Shown in pieces: positions 27,373-63,753 of a stretch of 64,000 bases of DNA. The stretch's first letter is position 1. Each line of letters begins with the position of its first letter. Under the pieces are notes generated by a model, which worked only from the letters and a program-made list of their open reading frames with translations, did not search any database and was not told where the DNA came from. This DNA comes from Bugula neritina (lineage: Eukaryota; Bryozoa; Gymnolaemata; Cheilostomatida; Bugulidae): NCBI GenBank assembly GCA_964035545.1, contig OZ037773.1, forward strand, positions 2,769,751-2,833,750, written 5' to 3'. A program made the translations under genes and the position numbers.

Positions 27373-27882
27373 CTACTCGAAGGTGTATATTGTAGGGTCA
27401 ACTTCTGCATCTCTTATATTGTATGTTTTCATAGCATAGCCTGGCAGCTCTCGTTCCTAAAAGTCAAAATGAACTTGCCTATATTGAATTTTATTAACCA
27501 TTTTAATTACGAGATCTGCTGTACAGTCTAAAAGCTTGGAACATGATTTCTTCTAACTAAGCAAATGTTTTACACACTGTACAATTTATTTTATAGTGAA
27601 GGAAAATATTTAACTTCAAATTGTAAATTAATAAAACACTGATTAAGTTTCCTGGTTGGTGCGTGTTATTATGTTTTGCTATATCAATTATTTTTCAGAT
27701 TTTTAAATTCTAATGCAGTAAAATTTTACTTGAATCATTATTATATCCAAATAGATACAGAATAATGTTCACCTGTTGAGCAAAGAAATAACTTCCAACT
27801 TCTGAATGCGGCGCTTTCATAGACCTCATACTGTTATAAAATGGAGGCAGAGACGGTGCCACTCGAGGTGGAGTTGTCTCGC
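27373..27882 (-). CDS. Receptor 3' exons: cytoplasmic tail
   Basis: Exons 27773-27882 and 27373-27456 (TAG stop at 27373-27375). They continue the TM exon, whose donor is G|GTCAGT at 28245; reading through that donor would instead end at a near stop after NEGQYE. The tail holds a proline stretch (TTPPRVAPSLPP), the tyrosine motif YNSM (YxxM form), and further tyrosines in SYFF, GYAM, TYNI and IYTFE at the C terminus. These are the kinds of short motifs used by SH3 and SH2 proteins, but no binding is shown. The splice choice is inferred from perfect phase and the long open frame. Confidence 0.75.

Positions 27883-63753: not shown

Follow-up and report, generated by a model that had tools for sequence, protein, structure and literature searches.

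The window, a 64,000-nt stretch of the Bugula neritina genome (C9:2769751-2833750; the genome searched comprises 215.8 Mb on 295 contigs), holds part of an apparent giant gene on its minus strand, modelled as a spliced series of 78 exons that runs from 81,068 to 27,373 (window coordinates throughout) and encodes 4,005 residues (Table 1). Fifty-six of these exons and 2,881 residues lie within the window, in keeping with the 55 phase-consistent exons and at least 2,890 residues described in an earlier note, and the 5′ part overshoots the window by 17 kb on the same contig. The upper limit of the interval given there (63,753) is not the 5′ end but belongs to the final exon that the window still shows, the model running on to 81,068; the other end, 27,373, coincides with the end of the model's stop codon (27375-27373). 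Cysteine-rich modules ending CC-x2-C occur in minus-strand reading frames throughout 32-64 kb and continue to ~78 kb in the adjoining DNA, and the introns have a median length of 415 bases (maximum 2,233). The observed array is real, larger than first described, and built in large part of two-module units that had been overlooked. Just downstream lies a separate gene on the opposite strand, marked by a protein kinase exon (25779-26123, plus strand; Pkinase E 2.4e-6, below its cut-off), and upstream a minus-strand frame at 91,787 (L006) resembles what we take to be histone H2B.

Table 1. Features of the giant gene and places of related units (window coordinates unless a contig is named).
Feature	Position	Strand	Remarks
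In-window part of gene model	27373..63753	-	residues 1125-4005 of 4005
22 upstream exons	64,551-81,068	-	contig C9, loci L004-L005
Five of eight near-identical single-exon modules (TTTSPCLGD...CCQFCAPPTTTTAAP)	60437..63753	-	remaining three copies at 64,551-66,416
More unpaired CC modules (28-31 of 62)	53407..58203	-	
Thr-rich exon	56642-56502	-	
Divergent module copy with RKRR site	56030-55827	-	
Degenerate module copy	53563-53465	-	
First paired-module unit of C-terminal series	51784..52477	-	
SEA-like domain 1, two exons	50562..51463	-	Pfam SEA E 2.6e-5, 24.7 bits (cut-off 26.4); 5.4e-4 in longer context
Eight paired-module units, Thr-rich spacers	42499..50478	-	
SEA-like region 2 (weak)	41059..41984	-	hhalign to SEA1 and SEA4, 0/60 shuffles as high each, E ~0.01
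Six paired-module units and one whose first module is degenerate	32278..39208	-	
SEA-like domain 3	30956..31956	-	matches SEA4, hhalign 93%, E 3.5e-7
Furin-type site RRVKR after SEA3	30986-30972	-	
Calcium-binding EGF domain 1	29854..30442	-	spans exons 30465-30367 and 29909-29730
SEA-like domain 4	28746..29814	-	resembles SEA3
Calcium-binding EGF domain 2	28433..28727	-	
Single transmembrane helix	28295..28363	-	residues 3917-3939; hydropathy 3.3 over 19 residues, next best 1.7
Cytoplasmic tail, ~66 residues, four exons	27373..28294	-	alternative shorter tail: stop at 28232
Paired-unit places elsewhere	C3:12.77-12.96 Mb, C3:10.91 and 11.35 Mb, C2:24.018 and 4.94 Mb, C6:10.69 Mb		L056, L059, L064-L067

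The model was built with a spliced dynamic-programming parser, whose acceptor and donor weight matrices and codon scores were trained on confident exons, and was then curated by hand. The 4,005 codons hold no in-frame stop, and when exon edges were picked independently of their neighbours the phases matched at 68 of the 77 junctions (about 26, a third, expected by chance), a test that is not fully blind in that the splice matrices had been trained on phase-constrained exons. The independently chosen best site was the model's own at 73 of 78 acceptors and 72 of 78 donors. The spliced search scored 1742 on this strand, as against 359 on the opposite strand, which carries genes of its own, and 98-102 for three first-order random sequences. 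The parser is, however, unreliable on where genes end. With penalties of 14/10 and 6/6 the array stayed intact but extended into neighbouring sequence on both sides, at 14/10 even taking in the histone-like frames at 91.8 kb; at 2/2 it ended at 27,373 and came apart in the 78.6-77.9 kb interval and near 58, 48, 39.7 and 31.4 kb; and with free boundaries it was broken in many places. This behaviour slightly lowers the odds for one gene.

At the 5′ end, three upstream candidates for the first exon were found; the one adopted (MRSRQGAPLLLSLTALTLLTAS) has by far the strongest donor, was chosen for its signal-peptide look and is plausible. A signal peptide is likely. A lenient screen of the whole stretch returned 60 signal-like exons; of the 15 shown, one is the chosen exon and the other 14 overlap exons of the model in a different frame. 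At the other end doubt attaches to the three small exons that close the tail, and a further weak point is junction 32278/31956, which requires a GC-AG intron. The parser also put forward two small exons, 78669-78637 and 46834-46799, which were omitted because the modules are complete without them. Outside the model, part of a module exon recurs as an extra copy (TYCCEFCSNRTRTTTS) at 66545-66661 (L004), possibly a remnant of exon duplication, and one intron contains a short tandem repeat of ~74 bases (29399-29573, minus strand) that translates to repeated CIYVCAVCVCVYH-like peptides. Automatic annotation would likely split a gene of 78 such short exons.

Cysteine modules and the two-module unit

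The full model contains 62 strict C..C..C..CC-x2-C modules, selected by their CC-x2-C ending, among 65 CC dipeptides; 40 of them fall in the window, close to the roughly 43 modules with Thr-rich spacers first reported for it. The protein is 15% Thr and 10% Cys, with 597 acidic vs 212 basic residues. T/S/P-rich windows hold 997 of the 4,005 residues, 37% of them Thr, split over many short spacers, and there is no long uninterrupted PTS domain. Outside the pairs described below the spacers are mostly Thr-rich and 5 to 135 residues long, the longest containing degenerate modules or SEA regions.

Two module flavours can be told apart. The G modules (20 of 62) start C-x-[YFW]-G-[DN], and the module that precedes a G (the y module) has CY at its third cysteine in all 19 pairs. 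The two alternate as a two-module yG unit, with a linker of exactly 11 residues in 13 of the 19 pairs, and this alternation is non-random, being matched by 33 of 20,000 shuffles. Along the chain the order is y-yG-yG-yG-yG, then 22 unpaired modules, then yG repeats to the end, with one GG that conceals a degenerate y module. Module sequences are diverse in the paired part. The unpaired middle includes eight near-identical module exons, seven of phase 0-0 and the last (60596-60437) 0-1, in which adjacent exons are 89-98% identical in DNA and the flanking 200 bases 43-95%, together with three alternating duplicated exon pairs (68-95%), indicating that this part of the protein grew by exon duplication.

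AlphaFold2 models of two modules, built from alignments of 24 window modules, place short helices around the cysteines (pLDDT 79 and pTM 0.50 for the first, of 45 residues; 79.5 and 0.48 for the second). A Foldseek search of solved structures with the 45-residue first model gave no match, and sequence searches of solved structures found nothing for the C-terminus at E 0.01 or for a profile of the pairs at E 1. A weak match of one related unit from elsewhere in the genome to a pheromone (E 0.015) was taken as coincidence.

The modules had been proposed to be dozens of PLAC domains, a view of which the cysteine framework stands and the profile evidence does not: three of the 19 pairs touch PLAC, and no listed score reaches the cut-off. 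The first cysteine gap is 6-8 in 55 of the 62 modules, the third is 8 in 40 and the middle gap ranges over 4-14; three PLAC domains that exceed the cut-off elsewhere in the genome have spacings of 6-8, 8 and 8. Against the Pfam gathering cut-off for PLAC (PF08686) of 26.4 bits, the giant protein scored 16.5 and 17.2 where bits were listed, and modules 13-27 and 61-62 (residues 623-1371 and 3441-3545) gave no PLAC match up to E 5. When the whole genome was searched with the PLAC profile, the three other places came up and none in the giant gene. By profile matching PLAC is nonetheless the best-matching known family among the 19 pairs (3/19, best E 3e-4, vs Crisp 2/19, 0.24, and ShK 1/19, 0.045). 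Comparing 48 modules with the genome's own three PLAC domains by hhalign gave 61% (E 8e-5), a score reached by 7 of 200 cysteine-kept shuffles. The modules thus have the PLAC cysteine framework in common, with a likeness beyond the cysteines that is marginal, and PLAC ancestry would rest on spacing, position and weak profile matches. PLAC habitually occurs as a single C-terminal domain of a secreted protein; here many modules lie N-terminal to a transmembrane helix. The paired two-module domain itself appears to be a real unit, for which Pfam lists no match at its cut-off.

The membrane-proximal end

The C-terminal order is SEA3 - RRVKR - EGF - SEA4 - EGF - transmembrane helix - tail, which, judged by sequence order, includes the EGF-SEA-EGF-TM-tail order of transmembrane mucins. 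Together with the signal-peptide-like first exon and the phase agreement, the single transmembrane helix supports the earlier description of one type I membrane protein. That the protein has two calcium-binding EGF domains, as also proposed before, is on the profile matches beyond reasonable doubt (EGF_3 7.2e-14 and EGF_CA 2.3e-8, two stretches each). Of the four SEA domains claimed, all four regions were recovered, none at Pfam level: SEA1 comes near the cut-off, SEA3 and SEA4 are alike, SEA2 is weak, and SEA2, SEA3 and SEA4 have no match to any Pfam SEA profile. SEA4 is named solely from its likeness to SEA3 and SEA2. In further pairwise hhalign comparisons, shuffles scored as high in 1 of 60 cases for SEA1-SEA3, 7 of 60 for SEA2-SEA3 and 57 of 60 for SEA1-SEA4, and inspection by eye found no clear G-SVVV self-cleavage motif in the four regions. 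The tail has no signalling family above its Pfam cut-off. Among the families considered at the outset, then, EGF was found clearly, PLAC and SEA fell under their cut-offs, and ShK reached E 0.045 at best.

A genome search with the C-terminus returned 27 matches; all that lay outside the giant gene were weak, at best E 1.8e-4, and for the most part fell on the EGF domains, and one covered SEA3-EGF (C6:8764231, E 0.007). SEA exons over the Pfam cut-off occur at L012 (C2:1002700), which bears long Thr/Pro and TTGQPNATSPVTTEQ-type repeats and is probably another SEA mucin, and at C2:12.93-12.96 Mb (L013-L015), where near-identical SEA exons are repeated.

Paired units elsewhere in the genome

A genome search with the N-terminal part of the protein as query led to three open frames like it, located on C3 and C2. 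These hold the pair with an 11-residue linker ending PWLGPD. Three outside units gave no PLAC match. A search with one of these outside units found 16 places, 15 of them outside the giant gene (10 on C3, eight of which lie at 12.77-12.96 Mb, four on C2, two of these in one frame, and one on C6). Stops fall within two of the 15 units, and the giant gene ranked last of the 16 (E 0.05). In the reverse direction, a profile built from six outside units matched the giant protein at E 1.7e-14, with most pairs in register and a best single unit of 1.5e-8, as against E 21 for whole proteins and 0.0067 for the best single stretch among the six shown of 20 cysteine-kept shuffles (E-values computed over 21 sequences without filters and subject to a large composition correction). 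A 42-base match in viral contigs was taken as chance; viral contigs had no match to an outside unit, and no match came from prokaryote genomes.

The surroundings of some of these units point to ADAMTS-type genes. The open frames of L066 and L067, 838 and 864 residues long, pass from the unit directly into (TTTTTP)n, and exons upstream match ADAMTS_CR_2 below cut-off (E 1e-4 to 2e-3); an exon of L066 also resembles the end of a reprolysin domain and is metzincin-like (Reprolysin_2 E 0.009 trimmed, 0.018 for the whole frame). Thr-rich stretches at L056, L064 and L065 are shorter and mixed. An ADAMTS_CR_2 search of the genome gave 20 places at E up to 0.05, 10 of them over the cut-off. Such a match lies 0.6-6.2 kb upstream, on the same strand, in seven of the 15 outside units and in none of the other eight; all seven fall below the Pfam cut-off, and the chance of finding one is ~0.0005 per unit, with the reservation that several units are near neighbours and do not count as independent events. 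EGF_CA exons downstream of units in L068 and L065, and SEA-looking exons without a Pfam match in L068, may belong to the genes of those units or to others. The places where the unit follows ADAMTS_CR_2 or precedes (TTTTTP)n are apparent protease-mucin chimeras. In the giant protein there was no Pfam match of the metalloprotease and cysteine-rich domains that together define an ADAMTS.

Some features of the assembly itself came to light. On the mitochondrial contig, C295, the protein genes seen share one direction and follow the order atp6-nad3-nad2-cox2-cob-nad4L-nad4-nad5-nad1-cox3-(rRNA stretch)-nad6-cox1 (names other than cox1 assigned by eye from translations; atp8 not identified). Judged by eye, cox1 gives a good reading when ATA is taken as Met and AGA as Ser, on which ground a sponge or cnidarian host was rejected. 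The gene order is the one given for B. neritina in PMC2678162, and since mitochondrial gene order is described as strongly variable among bryozoans (PMC3285623), it points to that species or a close relative. Of the 23 tRNAs placed by ARAGORN, 17 lie where the PMC2678162 table has the same tRNA and six do not; base composition is A 0.377, C 0.170, G 0.122, T 0.331, compared with 0.377, 0.176, 0.124 and 0.323 in that source. Additional cox1-like genes on C196 and C65 (TGA read through; split on C196) and C17 (bacterial-looking, cbb3-type by eye) suggest that the assembly probably contains DNA of other organisms. A nearly full-length cox1 copy on the chromosome-size contig C6 (11174072-11175412), scoring almost as high as mitochondrial cox1, is probably a recent nuclear mitochondrial insertion.

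Interpretation and comparison with known systems

We consider it fairly probable that the locus is a single gene for a type I membrane protein that acts as a tethered mucin, with an ectodomain made of an expanded array of ADAMTS-associated, PLAC-like paired domains. In its proposed history, an ADAMTS-associated unit would have been joined to a SEA/EGF membrane anchor and then multiplied, first as pairs and later, in the middle, as single exons (eight copies). Within the glycocalyx of a bryozoan epithelium, the product would be a long and stiff filament bearing O-glycans, its disulphide knobs resisting proteolysis, and cleavage at the furin-type RRVKR after SEA3 could leave an EGF-SEA-EGF stub in the membrane. 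The surface location, the O-glycosylation of the Thr spacers, the filament-like role and the cleavage are what we infer from sequence features. Descent of the unit from ADAMTS-type genes is likewise deduced, and transfer from protease to mucin or the reverse are both possible.

About evenly balanced, in our judgement, is the wider proposal that a bryozoan mucin family goes back to a new two-module cysteine domain taken over from proteases of the ADAMTS type. Its members would be mucins linked to a protease, which carry a single unit and long (TTTTTP)n tracts, and a lone giant tethered mucin whose mucin domain has given way to ~20 units and 20 single modules. If true, a mucin-like surface coat could be made without reliance on long PTS repeats, and one mobile domain would link ADAMTS proteases and SEA/EGF mucins. 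The paired domain is a concrete profile with which to search other lophotrochozoan genomes.

That the model wrongly joins several adjacent genes, or a decaying tandem array, is in our view unlikely. Such an arrangement would account for the splitting of the array at weak spots when gene boundaries are cheap, for the GC-AG intron needed at one junction and for the partial module copy near 66,650, and because the parser at ordinary penalties also fails to separate the array from its neighbours, the intact array it returns there is no proof of unity. It fits poorly with the phase matches from independent edges (68/77), with a single transmembrane helix and the lack of any in-frame stop, and with a set of signal-like first exons (60 listed) of which 14 of the 15 shown overlap model exons in another frame and the fifteenth is the one chosen. 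Granted a single protein, the modules might be binding sites of a surface receptor or adhesion protein, concerned with colony recognition, larval attachment or symbiont binding, and not parts of a barrier filament. We hold this to be possible, if on the unlikely side: diverse module sequences in the paired part, a central block enlarged by near-identical exons and two calcium-binding EGFs would suit a receptor, whereas the Thr-rich spacers, the EGF-SEA-EGF stub and the (TTTTTP)n relatives favour mucins, and the tail has no signalling family over the Pfam cut-off.

Two further readings turn on the identity of the modules. A matrix protein of genuine PLAC repeats, akin to papilin and the ADAMTS-like proteins and anchored in the membrane incidentally, would explain why the cysteine spacing equals that of the genome's three PLAC domains, why hhalign relates them (61%, E 8e-5) and why PLAC is the commonest Pfam match among the pairs (3/19). 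We find it doubtful, given scores of 16.5 and 17.2 bits vs 26.4, stretches without any match (modules 13-27 and 61-62), a likeness beyond the cysteines near chance (7/200 shuffles), the alternation with a second module type (C-x-[YFW]-G-[DN]), and the absence of TSP1 and Kunitz domains from the protein, the whole of which was scanned against Pfam. Highly improbable is an array of ShK-type, toxin- or channel-blocker-like domains. ShK domains end C-x3-C-x2-C and these modules CC-x2-C; the ShK profile (PF01549) matches one of the 19 pairs, at E 0.045 at best, and the one module model searched has no structural match. In favour of this reading are that weak match and the short helices of the two predicted modules.

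In the open-licence literature, papers with 'PLAC domain' report no repeated PLAC arrays in their titles or abstract starts, and no paper joins PLAC domain, SEA domain and EGF, or SEA domain, ShK domain and EGF. Titles and abstract starts likewise hold nothing comparable on PLAC, papilin, lacunin and ADAMTS or on bryozoan mucins (among the matches listed for each), or for Bugula neritina with EGF and mucin.

The transmembrane mucins MUC3, MUC12, MUC13 and MUC17 combine a signal peptide, a Thr-rich ectodomain, the order EGF-SEA-EGF-TM and a tail. Like them, the giant protein has a signal peptide (predicted), Thr-rich spacers in its ectodomain, EGF and SEA-like domains beside a single transmembrane helix, and a tail; unlike them, its ectodomain is mostly cysteine modules, its four SEA-like regions are under the Pfam cut-off and it has no long PTS block. 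Small cysteine domains also interrupt the mucin tracts of gel-forming mucins, as CysD domains, and the small cysteine domains of the giant protein break up its mucin tracts in a similar way; CysD is a different domain, and Pfam gave no CysD-type match in the protein. PLAC-domain proteins include MIG-17. With the PLAC of ADAMTS, papilin, MIG-17 and DYF-4 the modules share six cysteines ending CC-x2-C, and seven of the 15 related units follow ADAMTS cysteine-rich matches; the giant protein differs in its dozens of paired copies under the PLAC cut-off, in being membrane-bound and in having no protease. DYF-4 has one C-terminal PLAC (PMC8221789), and Muc13 has SEA, EGF and PTS domains outside the membrane, with one exon per PTS repeat in chicken (both PMC1552070). 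Seven ADAMTS-like places elsewhere in this genome (C3:12.78-12.94 Mb, C3:10.91 Mb and C6:10.69 Mb) have the paired unit in common with the giant protein. At L056, L066 and L067, the three of the seven that were read at DNA level, it has the 11-residue linker and is followed by a Thr-rich tract, which is (TTTTTP)n in two, and the places differ from the giant gene in a linker ending PWLGPD, an extra C..GP..GY.C after the unit and ADAMTS_CR_2 upstream.
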